Made by a program: the position numbers and the translations under genes. Source: Pseudovibrio axinellae (GTDB lineage: Bacteria > Pseudomonadota > Alphaproteobacteria > Rhizobiales > Stappiaceae). From it: DNA of 64,000 bases. Below the pieces are notes generated by a model. That model ran no database searches, was not told the DNA's origin, and saw nothing but the letters and a program-made list of their open reading frames with translations. Location of the stretch: NCBI RefSeq assembly GCF_900110875.1, contig NZ_FOFM01000001.1, positions 868,001-932,000 on the forward strand, read 5' to 3'. Shown piece after piece: positions 56,817-61,998 of this stretch (its first letter is position 1; each line of letters begins with the position of its first letter).

Positions 56817-57781
56817 TGGCTGGCAATCTTATTCTTGCTCTTCCCTCTAAAGGACGCCTGCAGGAAATGACCCATGCGTTCTTTGCGCGTGCTGGCTTGA
56901 CTGTGAAGCGTCCAGGTGGTGACCGGAACTACCGCGGAGCCTTAAAAGGCGTGGATGGCGTCGAAATCGCGTTCCTTTCAGCCTCTGAAATTGCACGTGA
57001 GATCGCTGCTGGCACCGTGCACTTCGGTATCACGGGAACGGATCTGGTCAATGAGAATATTGACCGGCCCGAGGAGAAAACGCATATCATCACCGCGCTT
57101 GGCTTTGGTCATGCAGACGTTGTGATTGCGGTTCCAACTGCTTGGATCGATGTGTCTACAATGGCTGATCTTGCTGATGTTGCTTCTGATTTTCGGGCAC
57201 GCCATGGTCGCAGATTGCGCATTGCAACCAAGTATGTGAACCATACACGGCAGTTCTTCGCTGCAAATGGCATTGCAGATTACCGCATTGTTGAAAGTGC
57301 TGGCGCAACTGAGGGAGCGCCTGCGGCAGGTTCTGCTGAGCTGGTTGTCGACATCACCTCAACAGGTTCCACGCTCAAGGCTAATAACCTAAAGATCCCA
57401 GAGGATGGCGTGATCGCGCGGTCTCAGGCTCACCTTGTGGCGTCTACAACAGCCAACTGGGATAACAGTGCCTTGCAAGCGGCCCGTTTGATGCTGGACC
57501 GCATTACCGCACAGGACAATGCTCATAACTTTAAAGAGATGCGCACGGTTGTTGCAAACCCTGAGCAGGTCCTTAGCAAGGTTGCTGCGCTTGGGTGTGT
57601 TGCTCCGTTCGGTGTTGAGGGCTCCTCTCTGGTCCTGCATTGCCCAGCTTCCAAAGTCCCTGAATGTGCGGATAAGTTGCGCGCAGAAGGGGCACAAATG
57701 GTCACAGTGACGCCGCTGGAGTACGTGTTCCACACTGCAAACCCACTATTTGAGCCTTTAGAGAAAAAAGTTTCAAATTAG
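56816..57781 (+). CDS. hisG: ATP phosphoribosyltransferase, extended form
   Basis: The first enzyme of histidine biosynthesis. The catalytic part has [22 protein letters not shown] and the PRPP loop [18 protein letters not shown]. At 321 residues it is about 90 longer than the short HisG usually paired with HisZ; the extra C-terminal part (from [13 protein letters not shown]) looks like a regulatory domain. Long HisG with HisZ also occurs, as far as I recall, in Bradyrhizobium-type genomes. Confidence 0.94.
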
Positions 57782-57806
57782 GCCTAATCTACTGATATAT
57801 AATGCA

Positions 57807-57836
57807 AAACGCACTCCTCGCCGGAGTGCGTTTTTA
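57807..57836 (+). terminator. Terminator of hisS-hisZ-hisG
   Basis: AAAACGCACTCC (57807-57818) pairs with GGAGTGCGTTTT (57823-57834) and continues into a T-run. Confidence 0.9.
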
Positions 57837-57872
57837 TTGCGTTGGTTTGCGTTTTTTGCGTGAAACTTGCGT
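57837..57872 (+). promoter_or_regulatory. Four TTGCGT hexamers at helical spacing
   Basis: TTGCGT occurs at 57837, 57847, 57856 and 57867, spaced 10, 9 and 11 bases. It lies between the hisG terminator and the small-peptide/SagB locus, so it could be a regulator-binding array for that locus. No promoter boxes are clear. Confidence 0.35.
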
Positions 57873-58000
57873 TATTACGGGCCTCGTTTTTTTTGCCGCA
57901 AAGCGCCTTTTCGGTGCGCCACCCCCCAAAAAGCTGCGTCAGATTTTTCGAGACCTGCTTTCGGTTAGCTCAACTCTGCCGCCGTCAAAAGGCACACATA

Positions 58001-58090
58001 ATGGCCTTAATCGATGCCTATCTATTTACCCGTGAACATAAGAAGGAATTCGCTTTAGTGAGAATTTCGTTCGAACTGAAGAAGATGTAG
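58001..58090 (+). CDS. Possible third small peptide of the SagB locus
   Basis: A 29-residue ORF with AAAGG about 8 bases upstream. Its second half (KKEFALVRISFELKKM) loosely resembles the KKTEFASFVILQKV region of the peptide at 58380. It lies upstream on the same strand as the two clear peptides. The resemblance is weak and could be chance; the conserved QKV end is absent. Confidence 0.3.
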   Translation: MALIDAYLFTREHKKEFALVRISFELKKM

Positions 58091-58114
58091 TCGCCCGTCG
58101 ACCAAGTTCACTCA

Positions 58115-58136
58115 TAGGGGTTGTCCTACAACCCTA
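58115..58136 (+). other. Hairpin between small ORFs
   Basis: TAGGG-(G)-TTGT, loop CCT, ACAACCCTA: a nine-pair stem with one bulge, directly before the first clear peptide gene. It may separate expression of the small ORFs. Confidence 0.4.
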
Positions 58137-58156
58137 AGGCGTAAAGGAATGGATCA

Positions 58157-58237
58157 ATGAAAACCATCTCCAAAAACTTCGCAGATAAAACAGATCTAGC
58201 CACATTTGGGCTCTGCCAGAAAGTAACGCCGAAATAA
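58157..58237 (+). CDS. Putative RiPP precursor peptide 1 (26 aa)
   Basis: A 26-residue ORF, AAGGA 8 bases upstream. It shares 14 of 26 positions with the peptide at 58380, at equal length and without gaps: pattern NFAxKT[DE]xA[TS]Fx[LI] then xQKV[ST]xK. It contains one Cys (C20), three Thr and one Ser, residues often modified in such peptides. The paired small ORFs before a SagB-type flavin enzyme suggest a modified-peptide precursor. That function is inference; the pairing and homology are seen directly. Confidence 0.7.
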   Translation: MKTISKNFADKTDLATFGLCQKVTPK

Positions 58238-58243
58238 GGCGTT

Positions 58244-58280
58244 CGACCGCCGAGGCTTCTTATGGCCGCCCCGGCGGTCG
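58244..58280 (+). other. Strong hairpin between precursor 1 and precursor 2
   Basis: CGACCGCCG (58244-58252) pairs with CGGCGGTCG (58272-58280), with a 19-base loop. There is no T-run after it. It sits 6 bases after the first peptide gene, where leaky terminators or processing hairpins often set precursor excess over enzyme. Confidence 0.6.
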
Positions 58281-58379
58281 GCTCTTGAAACAGTAAGTGC
58301 CAACCTGATGCTAATGCATAAAAGTGTCCTGCGTTGAGCACCAGTGCCCCACCTCGTGAAGGCTAAAGGAGGCTATGTC

Positions 58380-58460
58380 ATGAAAAAAGTCTCTGTAAAT
58401 TTTGCAAAAAAGACAGAGTTTGCATCATTTGTCATTCTCCAGAAAGTCTCCCACAAATAA
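58380..58460 (+). CDS. Putative RiPP precursor peptide 2 (26 aa)
   Basis: A 26-residue ORF with an excellent AAAGGAGG Shine-Dalgarno 7 bases upstream, ending 16 bases before the SagB gene. It is homologous to the peptide at 58157 (N7-F8-A9, K11-T12, A15, F17, Q21-K22-V23, K26 all shared). It lacks Cys; Ser and Thr occur at 5, 12, 16 and 24. The N-terminal half is basic like a leader. It is too short for routine gene calling. Confidence 0.72.
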   Translation: MKKVSVNFAKKTEFASFVILQKVSHK

Positions 58461-58476
58461 CTGCGAGGAAAGAAGA

Positions 58477-59589
58477 ATGTTAACCTCACCGAATTGGGAA
58501 AAGACCTCAAACAAACTTAAAGTATCTGAGGACGTATTTATCTACTTCAAAGATAACACCCCATTTTTGGTTGATACGCGCAAGCATGAAGAATATGAAA
58601 TAGACGATCCAGCGGTAATCACCGAGATTGCAGGCTTTTTAAATGGCGCTGAGATTTCTCCAGAAACGCTTCAAAATTTCAAAGAAGTCAATATTCTCAC
58701 GCCAGAAACTCAAAAGCCCCTGTTTCGAAATTTCCAAAATGACATTCTCGACCTGTTTCACGAGGCCTGTAAAGACGTACTGGATCAAACCGACGTTTGC
58801 AGCCCCACGGAATTCTCAGATGCCTTCGTCGCAACCTGCGAAAAAATAGATGGAGAAGAACCGCCCGCACGCAGCAAAAGTGTTGCCTTGAGCGGCGTTC
58901 AGCCGATTTTTCTCCCTGAATTTAATAGAGATTCTTTAAATGAGACCTCGCTCTTTTCCGCGTTGGACAGGCGTAAAACCATTCGCGAATTTTACCCACA
59001 CACGTTGAGCCAACAAGACCTTTCAAACTTTCTCTTTTCTGCATTTGGTTATTTTCATGACTACAAAAAGGAGGAGTGTAAAGAATATACTCCCTTCAGA
59101 CGCCGTAGCTCTCCAGCAGGGGGCTGCCTTCAGTCTACCGAAGCATTTCTCACAGTGTTCAATGTGGAAGGTGTTGCACCTGGCATTTATTGGTATGAAC
59201 CAGAGCAACACGCGCTGCTTAAGGTTCGCGACGCAATAAGCTACGAAGAGCTTTCGAGCCTGCTCATATCGCAGTATTTTGGAGCCAATTGCTCAGTGGG
59301 TGTCTTTATCGCGTCAAATCTGGAGCGCTTTGGTTGGAAATATCAAACAACCCGTGCTTACCGCGCCCTTTGCCTGGAAGCTGGGCACTTCTCTCAAACT
59401 GCTCAACTTTGTGCAACGGCATTGGGATTGAACACATGGATTACCGCTGCATTTAAGGATGTACGCGTTGAAGAGCTTTTAAGCATCACAGAAGAGCGGA
59501 CTATCCCTCTTATGTTTTTGGGTATCGGCAAAGGCAGATACCACCCTATGAATTCAATCATGGAGAGCCGTCTGAAAAGATCCACCTAG
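58477..59589 (+). CDS. SagB-type flavin dehydrogenase
   Basis: A 370-residue protein. Residues about 1-75 resemble a winged-helix, peptide-clamp region (VFIYFKDNTPFLVDTRKHEEYEID). From about 155 the nitroreductase-like SagB domain has RRKTIREFYPHTLSQQDL, RRSSPAGG, GIYWYEPEQHALLKV, and the late EAGHFSQTAQLCATALGLNTW. SagB enzymes use FMN to oxidise azolines to azoles in thiazole/oxazole-modified peptides. No YcaO partner is in the window, so the chemistry here is open. ATG 58477 follows AGGAAAG. Confidence 0.88.
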   Translation: MLTSPNWEKTSNKLKVSEDVFIYFKDNTPFLVDTRKHEEYEIDDPAVITEIAGFLNGAEISPETLQNFKEVNILTPETQKPLFRNFQNDILDLFHEACKDVLDQTDVCSPTEFSDAFVATCEKIDGEEPPARSKSVALSGVQPIFLPEFNRDSLNETSLFSALDRRKTIREFYPHTLSQQDLSNFLFSAFGYFHDYKKEECKEYTPFRRRSSPAGGCLQSTEAFLTVFNVEGVAPGIYWYEPEQHALLKVRDAISYEELSSLLISQYFGANCSVGVFIASNLERFGWKYQTTRAYRALCLEAGHFSQTAQLCATALGLNTWITAAFKDVRVEELLSITEERTIPLMFLGIGKGRYHPMNSIMESRLKRST

Positions 59590-59697
59590 GCATCACACCC
59601 GACAGTTCCCAAGAAGCAGCCCGAGTTGATAGGCACGCAGACATGACTGCAACTCCGACCAGCTACGAGCGTATTCTTTTATGTAAGTGATTTTAGA

Positions 59698-60597
59698 TTA
59701 AGACGGCGCGCCCTTTTTAACAAACATGAGTACGGGCTCCATAAGCCCTGCCATCGAGATTAAGGTTATGCCTATAACCTCACGGGTGCCAAATGGTTCT
59801 CCCGCCCATAAGGCTGCGGTTGCCACTCCTGCACTGATTTCCGTCATAAACAATATTCCCAAAAGCCCAGGACTTATCAGGGTCGCGCCCCACATCACTG
59901 CAAAGGCTGGGGGGACCACAAGAAACAAAGCAACGGGTAAGAACCAAGGCAATACGTTTTCCACGCTCTGCCAATCAGGAAGAGTAGTAGAGCCTTCTAG
60001 CGGTAGGAAGGTCAATGCCAGTGCTGCAATGCTGCCCCAAAAGAAGTAGGACAATGTGAAATCAACGCTGTCTCCTTTTTTATCAGATCGCATGCAGACT
60101 GCTGCGCATGCCCATATGATGCCGGAAGCAAAGCCCATCAAAGTCCCGGCATTGATGGAAAGGTCAAGTCCTAGATCTACCTTGAGTATGACCAGAAGCC
60201 CCATAAGGCCGAAGATCATTGTTCCCCAACGGACCTTTGTGATGGGTTCTCCAAGTACCATCCGTGCTAACAATGTGCTCCATAAAGGGGTTAAATAGTA
60301 AAGAAGCAGCGCTTGAACAACGCTGGTATACACCAAGGCACCGGAGTATAGCACCAGTGAAATTCCGGCAAAAAGACCTGCTCTATGCAAAGACCAGGCG
60401 TCTACCGTAAAGGCGCGCCAACGCCATATAAACAAAGGTAAAAGTAAAACAGTCGGGGCGACATAAAACAACACGACTGCCCATATGCCCGTGATTCCGT
60501 CATGACTAAGCTCACGCAGAGGGATCCAAAACACACCCCACATTAATCCTGATATTGCGACACACAACGCTGCCACTTGCTCTACTCTTGTGCGCAT
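59698..60597 (-). CDS. DMT-superfamily transporter (EamA)
   Basis: A 299-residue membrane protein with ten hydrophobic segments and two EamA halves (ISGLMWGVFWIPLRELSHDGI, YLTPLWSTLLARMVLGEPI, LISPGLLGILFMTEISAGVATAALWAGEPF). It converges on the SagB gene with a 108-base gap, so it is probably not part of that operon, though export of a product cannot be excluded. Substrate unknown. Confidence 0.88.
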   Translation of the reverse strand: MRTRVEQVAALCVAISGLMWGVFWIPLRELSHDGITGIWAVVLFYVAPTVLLLPLFIWRWRAFTVDAWSLHRAGLFAGISLVLYSGALVYTSVVQALLLYYLTPLWSTLLARMVLGEPITKVRWGTMIFGLMGLLVILKVDLGLDLSINAGTLMGFASGIIWACAAVCMRSDKKGDSVDFTLSYFFWGSIAALALTFLPLEGSTTLPDWQSVENVLPWFLPVALFLVVPPAFAVMWGATLISPGLLGILFMTEISAGVATAALWAGEPFGTREVIGITLISMAGLMEPVLMFVKKGAPS

Positions 60598-60734
60598 ATT
60601 TTCTTGGACTCTCCGCCTGTATTTTTAAGTTACAAGAGTTCAGTCGCACGTTTTCTCACAAAGTTCTGGCGGAAATCAGACCTGTAAATCGATTATCTTT
60701 CGACGACCGTGCTATCAAACAGTAAGGTCATAGG

Positions 60735-61310
60735 ATGATAGATTTTCAGAGGTGCGAAAAAGCCAGATTGAGTCGTGACCCTTGTTTTGACGGTATTTTC
60801 TTTGTTGGGGTCAAAACATCTCGCATCTACTGCCGCACTGTTTGCCCTGTGCGTCAGCCGTTAACGAAAAACGTTGTCTACTTCCCAAGTGCGCCTGCAG
60901 CCGAAGCAGCAAACTACAGGCCCTGTTTGCGGTGCCGGCCAGAAGCTGCCCCCAATTCTCCAGCGTGGAACGGGACGCTCACGAGCGTACAACGGGCATT
61001 AAAGCTTATTGATAGCGGAGCGTTAGATAATGGAAGTGTCTCACAACTGGCAGAAAAGCTGGGCATAGGCGAGCGCCATCTTTCACGGCTATTCAAGCAA
61101 CATATTGGAGCTAGTCCACTCCAGAGCGCAAGAACGGTGCGTTTGCAGCGCGCCAAGCGCCTTTTGGACAGCAGCAATGCAAAGATTTCTGAGATTGCAT
61201 ATCAGGCAGGTTTCGGCAGTGTGCGCCAGTTTAACGCCCTATTTTTGGAAACCTACCGACATTCGCCGACTCAATATCGCAATAAGTTCTCAAAGGCGGG
61301 TACGAAATAA
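60735..61310 (+). CDS. Ada-type methyl-sensing transcriptional regulator (AdaA-like)
   Basis: A 191-residue protein with an Ada N-terminal zinc domain: FVGVKTSRIYCRTVCPVR (acceptor Cys of IYC) and YRPCLRC supply the four cysteines. A C-terminal AraC HTH follows (ISEIAYQAGFGSVRQFNALFLETYRHSPTQYR). Methylation of the Cys by DNA phosphotriesters should switch on repair genes. It lacks the methylguanine methyltransferase and AlkA parts of larger Ada proteins. It converges with tag, a matching repair gene. Confidence 0.9.
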   Translation: MIDFQRCEKARLSRDPCFDGIFFVGVKTSRIYCRTVCPVRQPLTKNVVYFPSAPAAEAANYRPCLRCRPEAAPNSPAWNGTLTSVQRALKLIDSGALDNGSVSQLAEKLGIGERHLSRLFKQHIGASPLQSARTVRLQRAKRLLDSSNAKISEIAYQAGFGSVRQFNALFLETYRHSPTQYRNKFSKAGTK

Positions 61311-61341
61311 GCTTGCTGCCCTACCCGATACCAACATTCCT

Positions 61342-61998
61342 TCAAGCCTTCACAGGCCTGACGAGCGCATTTCGCTTGGCTTCCACTATCTCACGGCAGC
61401 AGCAGCCTTCGATGTGGTCGTTGACCATGCCCATGGCTTGCATAAAGGCGTAGACGGTGGTTGGGCCAACGAAGGACCAACCGCGTTTTTTCAAGTCTTT
61501 TGAGATGGCCGTGGAGATATCAGTTTTGCCGAGTTGTCGAAGGTTTGCAAAGTCAAACACTTGCGGGCGCTGGTCTGGCGTTGGTTCCCACTTCCAGAAG
61601 TAAGCTGCAAGGGAGCCAAACTCTTTTTGCATCTCCAACGCACGGTTGGCGTTGTTGATGGTGGAGTTGATCTTTCCGCGATGACGGATGATGCCAGCAT
61701 CTTGCACGAGGCGCTCAATATCCTCTTGCGTGAAGCGGGCGACCTTTTGGAAGTCAAACCCTGCAAACGCCGCGCGAAAATTTTCGCGCTTGCGCAAGAT
61801 GGTCAGCCAGGACAATCCGGCCTGAAAGCCTTCGAGGCAAATTTTCTCAAACAGGCGAATATCATTTGTGACCGGATGGCCCCACTCATTATCATGATAG
61901 GCTTGGTAAAACGCATCGCCGCCATACCACTGGCAGCGGTCTTTGCCATCTTGCGCGCGAATAAGGCCTTCTGGAATGGGTGTGGTGCTGTCGCTCAT
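61342..61998 (-). CDS. tag: DNA-3-methyladenine glycosylase I
   Basis: Tag removes 3-methyladenine from DNA. The 218-residue sequence shows RCQWYGGD, YHDNEWGHPVTNDIRLFEKICLEGFQAGLSWLTILRKRENFR (substrate pocket), and the C-terminal zinc-site region NDHIEGCCCR. It lies tail-to-tail with the Ada-type regulator, 32 bases between stops. Confidence 0.95.
   Translation of the reverse strand: MSDSTTPIPEGLIRAQDGKDRCQWYGGDAFYQAYHDNEWGHPVTNDIRLFEKICLEGFQAGLSWLTILRKRENFRAAFAGFDFQKVARFTQEDIERLVQDAGIIRHRGKINSTINNANRALEMQKEFGSLAAYFWKWEPTPDQRPQVFDFANLRQLGKTDISTAISKDLKKRGWSFVGPTTVYAFMQAMGMVNDHIEGCCCREIVEAKRNALVRPVKA

Follow-up and report, generated by a model that had tools for sequence, protein, structure and literature searches.

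Paired 26-residue peptides beside a stand-alone SagB-type dehydrogenase: a candidate minimal RiPP-like locus in Pseudovibrio axinellae

The locus and its surroundings

The window analysed here is the whole stretch of 64,000 nucleotides from Pseudovibrio axinellae (contig NZ_FOFM01000001.1, positions 868,001 to 932,000). On its forward strand lie two small genes, p1 (58157..58237) and p2 (58380..58460), which encode the 26-aa candidate precursors MKTISKNFADKTDLATFGLCQKVTPK and MKKVSVNFAKKTEFASFVILQKVSHK. Both have 26 codons, their products are identical at 14 of 26 residues in a gap-free alignment, and a Shine-Dalgarno-like stretch stands ahead of each (AGGAGG for p2). After the stop codon of p2, 16 bases lead to the ATG of sagB (58477..59589, + strand), which encodes a SagB/ThcOx-type flavin dehydrogenase of 370 aa. 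An earlier note on this DNA had described this arrangement, and all of it is present in the sequence as stated there.

The assignment of the enzyme to the SagB type, also made in that note, was borne out by model TIGR03605 (SagB peptide dehydrogenase), against which the window SagB scored 107.9 bits, above the curated cut-off of 78.4; it also matched Pfam PF00881 (nitroreductase) at 3e-13. The catalytic domain spans about residues 128–352. The N-terminal domain has about 110 residues, and its profile gave chance matches only against solved structures (best E 0.62). A Lys-Tyr pair (K288, Y289) was invariant in all 21 enzymes chosen for comparison and aligns to the WKY of CyaGox; McbC is also among the solved relatives. 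In azoline dehydrogenases this pair is catalytic, and its invariance indicates that the window SagB is probably an active dehydrogenase. No second sagB was found in the window genome at E ≤ 0.001.

On its 5′ side the locus adjoins the end of hisG, where a terminator-like hairpin can be made out by eye. The nine closest sister genomes align to the window through hisG to 57771–57881 and then stop; alignment resumes at 61346–61373, within a tag-like glycosylase gene, in the four sister genomes that were read further. In genome G022, only about 60 bases separate the two aligned stretches. Since the alignments stop at hisG and resume in the tag-like gene, the segment from roughly 57877 to 61345 (57877..61345, ends approximate) is, as read from them, an insertion at a variable site. 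Among the sister loci L130–L133, the hisG/tag site is nearly empty in G022, and two other sisters with listed ORFs hold unrelated genes there, including RTX-like repeats in L131. The insertion contains p1, p2, sagB, an EamA-family transporter gene (59698..60597, − strand; Pfam PF00892) and an Ada/AraC-type gene (60735–61310). Its G+C content is only mildly low, at 0.478 (0.455 for sagB) vs 0.503 for the window. All 15 other members of the genus and all 86 other genomes of the family lacked a close SagB; the best match among them had E 2e-24 and 34% identity.

We saw no protease gene and no second core enzyme within the insertion, and no MFS gene follows sagB at the window locus. The EamA protein is a possible exporter of the product, perhaps, and the association is weak because its gene lies on the opposite strand and the relatives described below have an MFS gene after sagB instead.

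Peptide counterparts in alphaproteobacteria

Three other alphaproteobacterial loci with a 43–52% identical SagB have a 24–25-residue peptide counterpart directly upstream. Maritalea myrionectae plasmid pHL2708X3 encodes a 52% identical SagB and the peptide MKKVTRTFPNKEKLASFVLDVNGVC (L006:7858-7935), while Allorhizobium sonneratiae encodes a 52% identical SagB and the peptide MKKVSKSFPEKANLAALVFDSNGIC (L028:1620-1697). In both, an MFS gene follows sagB (Pfam). The Hyphomicrobiales MAG BB6 (G172) has a 44% identical SagB preceded by an in-frame peptide remnant, KKVQHIFVNKDNLVALLFDVNGQC, which lacks a start codon. This may reflect assembly error or decay; the contig title gives a coverage of 4.4. 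After sagB in BB6, one sees by eye the start of a membrane-protein-like ORF that is cut short by the contig end. In Allorhizobium, 5′ of the peptide gene, a direct repeat of about 100 bases surrounds an N (L028:1340-1560, by eye), perhaps an assembly join. The earlier note would have been weakened by broken peptide ORFs in relatives, and here the result is divided, with one of the three lacking its start codon and two intact. The note had called precursor duplication next to a flavin oxidase typical of modified peptides; both relatives whose peptide is intact have a single peptide gene rather than two, so duplication is not a general trait of these loci.

All window ORFs of 18–45 codons, nested starts included (n = 2006), were ranked by their BLOSUM62 local scores against the Maritalea and Allorhizobium peptides. 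Against the Allorhizobium peptide p1 ranked first, and against the Maritalea peptide p2 reached the top score, tied with two longer versions of itself. The scores of p1 and p2 against these peptides were 40–47; the best other ORFs were longer p2 versions, then one antisense to p2 (33), then others at 27–28. Since no unrelated ORF of the 2006 scored as high as p1 and p2 against the two intact peptides, p1 and p2 are, by this test, not chance ORFs.

Between p1 and p2, pS was 0.66 and pN 0.26, values from 26 codons only and near saturation; pS exceeding pN suggests the direction expected under protein-level selection. The motifs that had been taken as a sign of such selection fared less well, as NFAxKT and QKV are not kept in the relatives. 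The C-terminus is QKV[ST]xK in the window peptides vs DxNGxC in the three alphaproteobacterial relatives, which leaves no core residue conserved between them; the five peptides agree throughout only at K2, F8 and K11. A Phe stands at position 17 in p1, p2 and the Maritalea peptide, and at position 19 in the other two. p1 contains Cys, and both p1 and p2 contain Thr or Ser.

Beyond these loci, a profile built from four enzymes was run with a threshold of E ≤ 1e-25. Of 385 genomes in the class 8 had a match, and of 398 in the phylum 9 did, both counts including the window genome. In Rhizobiaceae-like genomes (the family of G154), a SagB at E ≤ 1e-40 was present in one of 247, G109, whose locus (L009/L026) had no peptide matching the pattern searched. 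SagB relatives were also present at ten loci of small-genome alphaproteobacteria (L050–L059), which stand outside all counts; there a peptide is at best possible, by eye, in L051, L054 and L057. One 1.6-Mb genome (G744) has three SagB matches, and in L057 a POT-family transporter gene comes after sagB. Priestia sp. J2 plasmid pA (L007), left out of the counts, encodes a SagB of about 25% identity and an MFS protein, with a 29-aa ORF upstream that has no clear similarity. The two genes adjoin nikABC, a permease and a DUF1980 protein, neighbours that may point to a metal-linked product in Bacillota. Viral contigs gave no match to six peptide patterns.

A second group of loci

A more distant SagB (E ≤ 1e-40) was found in 83 of 249 genomes, at 88 places, of one large genus, that of G1072, which is probably Pseudomonas. 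Fifty of the 88 places were read, 30 as returned by the search and 20 picked for diversity. L095 has only 77 nt upstream and was left out of the peptide count, leaving 49 testable loci. All 49 have a short ORF upstream of sagB, 46 recognised by pattern and three longer ones by eye. The co-occurrence of peptide and SagB elsewhere, proposed earlier as a check, was thus seen at three other alphaproteobacterial loci and, in analogous form, at every testable locus of this genus.

The 46 pattern-matching ORFs encode 21–26 aa (for example MKAITLEANKIANLAFLVAPKAR) and lie about 55–91 bases 5′ of sagB; 42 begin with MK and the rest with MN, MT or ME. Dinucleotide shuffles gave an expectation of 0.15 matches vs the 46 found, a generous control as the pattern was written after the peptides had been seen. 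Two of the longer ORFs, of 58 and 56 aa in L104 and L105, start with MK (MKRVTIEPTLNNQSNDAYQ...) and have their first 31 residues in common and differing tails (by eye); the third, 33 aa in L106, also starts with MK and shares SNDAY with them (by eye). The shared N-terminus and differing tails make L104:2146-4960 and L105 a good place to tell leader from core. Many tails in this genus contain no Cys, Ser or Thr.

Mean pS was 0.38 and mean pN 0.14 in a set of 34 coding sequences, each of 23 codons and 32 of them distinct. The resulting pN/pS of 0.37 indicates that selection in these peptides acts on the protein. The ratio is nearly the same in the leader (0.37, residues 1–14) and in the tail (0.39, residues 15–23), so the tail does not clearly stand out as the more variable part.

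Downstream genes were counted at 49 loci, L100 having no downstream sequence. An AurF-like diiron protein follows sagB in 43, and similarity to the Bcr/CflA-like MFS protein of L062 was found in 46. The other loci differ among themselves: L094, L095 and L107 have the MFS protein and no AurF; L104 and L105 have a carbamoyltransferase, followed in L104 by an MFS protein (Pfam); L106 has a TPR-methyltransferase protein, with no MFS found in 3.1 kb downstream. A short ORF and SagB that stay constant while the tailoring gene varies form, as judged from these gene orders, the pattern of a biosynthetic family rather than that of a housekeeping enzyme whose neighbour is there by accident. In L063 (G1090), G1270, G1280 and G1327, the SagB match is split in two or carries stop codons; the locus seems to decay in this genus also.

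Whether the two groups form one family was considered separately for enzyme and peptide. The SagB of the second group is 26–31% identical to the window SagB and has the same Lys-Tyr pair (ten sequences aligned), which marks the enzymes of both groups as homologous. The peptides agree in length and position, and both sets have an MK-x-[IV] start and an L/N-A stretch. Against three peptides of the second group, however, p1 and p2 ranked 124–532 of 2006, which is not significant, and hhalign of the two peptide profiles, which aligned them from Met1, gave a marginal result (probability 12%, E 0.0025). C-terminal residues differ from group to group, and within the second the residue at the Phe position varies. 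The two peptide groups are therefore best called analogous, and possibly homologous.

Hairpins were predicted in both groups. In the window, one extends from the p1 stop codon (58235..58287, + strand; MFE −27.5 kcal/mol, z −2.0, equalled by 6 of 200 shuffles) and is a candidate attenuating or stabilising element; the gap between p2 and sagB has none. L006 (z −4.2), L028 (z −4.4), L029 (z −2.1) and L062 (z −4.7) each have a hairpin in the corresponding position, and 27 of 46 peptide–sagB intergenic stretches in the G1072 genus reach z ≤ −2. A precursor gene is often separated from its enzyme gene by a hairpin. Those found here fit that layout but also an attenuator reading.

Interpretation and comparison with known systems

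An encoded candidate precursor lies beside an enzyme of peptide-modifying type and the two are conserved together, as expected of a RiPP locus. We think it likely that this is a minimal RiPP-like locus, with p1 and p2 as ultra-short precursors and a stand-alone SagB that oxidises a core residue, the product being exported. The sequences themselves give the genes, their conservation and linkage, the absence of YcaO and the conserved Lys-Tyr pair; the role of the peptides as substrate, the reaction, the export, the function and a modified peptide as the product are what we infer beyond them. In each precursor the N-terminal half (MK-x-[IV]...K..[LF]A) would serve for recognition, and the core would be short and C-terminal. 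SagB would bind it, probably via its N-terminal domain, and oxidise a core residue by two electrons, most likely by Cα/Cβ desaturation. No azoline substrate is envisaged because the genome encodes no YcaO. The proposal of desaturation follows a precedent: according to a preprint, the nitroreductase domain of PflD makes Z-dehydrophenylalanine in a YcaO-less setting, and its authors consider that other YcaO-less nitroreductases, described as rare and functionally uncharacterized in RiPP clusters, could form other dehydroamino acids (PMC12636437). Phe17 (window and Maritalea) or Phe19 as the target is a guess, since the residue at this position varies in the G1072 genus. Export would be by the MFS protein encoded after sagB in relatives, perhaps by the EamA protein here, and the hairpin behind the first peptide gene would allow more precursor than enzyme to be made. 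Weighing against this reading are the missing start codon in BB6, the lack of an MFS gene after sagB in the window, and the presence of two peptides where relatives have one. The marginal kinship of the two peptide groups, the differing C-termini, a tail hardly freer than the leader, an N-terminal SagB domain that matched no solved structure, an insertion in which no protease gene was seen and the absence of the locus from the sister species count against it too.

The SagB family and its Lys-Tyr pair, the Cys in p1 and the Thr or Ser in both peptides would also suit an azole-forming TOMM/LAP locus with its cyclodehydratase elsewhere in the genome. YcaO does occur in 13 of the 16 records searched, all 13 among the 14 of the G1072 genus, where it lies either on a different contig or over 1.4 Mb away from sagB. 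However, the whole window genome (99.9% complete) gave no match to PF02624 at E ≤ 0.001, where the control matched in 5 of 14 genomes, so known-route azole formation is excluded there; the earlier note had seen no YcaO and had concluded that known azole chemistry could not be complete, and both statements extend to the genome. YcaO was likewise absent from BB6, from the Maritalea plasmid (the search there covering the plasmid) and from G1267, which carries a G1072-genus locus, and many tails in that genus lack Cys, Ser and Thr. An azole-forming locus is thus very improbable, and for the window genome already refuted unless a cyclodehydratase of unknown type is involved. A search for an AurF partner in the window genome found none, with a weak control (matched in 1 of 14 genomes, none above cut-off). 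That the ORFs are chance or decayed sequence beside an ordinary nitroreductase is hardly credible: the BB6 peptide without start codon and the absence of a close SagB from the 15 other genomes of the genus would suit it, against which stand the ranking among 2006 ORFs, the recurrence in other lineages and the signs of selection.

The order of short ORF, strong hairpin and enzyme gene, with the 27 hairpin-bearing stretches of the G1072 genus, is also that of an attenuator. The peptides might then be unmodified regulatory leaders, acting by attenuation or translational coupling on a SagB whose substrate is a small molecule. We regard this as unlikely. By eye the peptides have no run of one amino acid, purifying selection extends along the whole peptide in the G1072 genus, the p2–sagB gap has no hairpin, and the peptide gene is duplicated in the window; moreover the C-terminal half is kept as protein in the G1072 genus and, as DxNGxC, in the three relatives. 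Closer to the RiPP-like reading, with which it overlaps, is a pathway in which the peptides are substrates but serve as a scaffold or in a PqqA-like manner, an amino acid or small molecule being released from their C-terminus as the end product and SagB performing one step. PqqA-class precursors are as short as these peptides, the AurF-like, carbamoyltransferase or methyltransferase genes of relatives suit small-molecule tailoring, and the exporters tested are of MFS or POT type. The window insertion, however, shows neither protease nor second core enzyme, and the C-terminal residues differ between the groups, so that we rate this end product as a minority possibility, somewhat doubtful on present evidence.

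Returning to the RiPP-like reading, we put forward more tentatively a wider one, an unrecognised, widespread RiPP family with precursors mostly of 21–26 aa (leader MK-x-[IV]), in which a stand-alone SagB would desaturate unactivated residues without a cyclodehydratase and AurF-like, carbamoyltransferase and methyltransferase genes would be exchanged around this pair. Such a family, found in one third of the genomes sampled from a single large genus, could easily be missed because its precursor genes are so short. Among the literature matches listed, covering titles and abstract beginnings with subscription papers mostly outside this scope, an arrangement of short peptide and lone SagB was not described. 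Very small precursors and few genes make such loci easy to clone and test, and they are frequent in the G1072 genus (83 of 249 genomes). The locus would offer a clean system for SagB action with no azoline to oxidise.

The FVG (gvg) cluster, considered for its small ORFs and carbamoyltransferase, is a different system, with lipase-, heme-oxygenase-, aminotransferase- and formyltransferase-like proteins and, in the available portions of the papers, no mention of a nitroreductase (PMC8064604, PMC8067088).

The closest NCBIfam model, TIGR04511 (SagB_rel_DH_2, 'putative peptide maturation dehydrogenase'), scored best for the window SagB (130.6 bits, E 7e-38) and for five relatives tested (126.8–163.1 bits), but all six fall below its curated cut-off of 240 bits. 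The locus resembles TOMMs (SagABCD, McbABCD) in its SagB/McbC-family dehydrogenase with the Lys-Tyr pair, and differs from them in the lack of YcaO in the window genome and in a very short precursor without a Cys/Ser/Thr-rich core. YcaO-less SagB/nitroreductase RiPP clusters are already known, with large precursors and other partners (PMC12636437; PMC7726476), whereas the precursors here are very small. The pfl/pos clusters of Pseudomonas (PflA-F; Os17 cluster OS3, Os1348-1351) likewise pair a RiPP precursor with a SagB/nitroreductase-type enzyme, with no YcaO reported in the cluster. Their precursor has a long folded leader (an 85-aa protein in Os17), whereas those described here have mostly 21–26 aa, and up to 58. 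The pfl nitroreductase is fused to an MNIO and accompanied by GNAT and HEXXH proteins, partners not seen at the present loci, where SagB has an N-terminal domain of its own.
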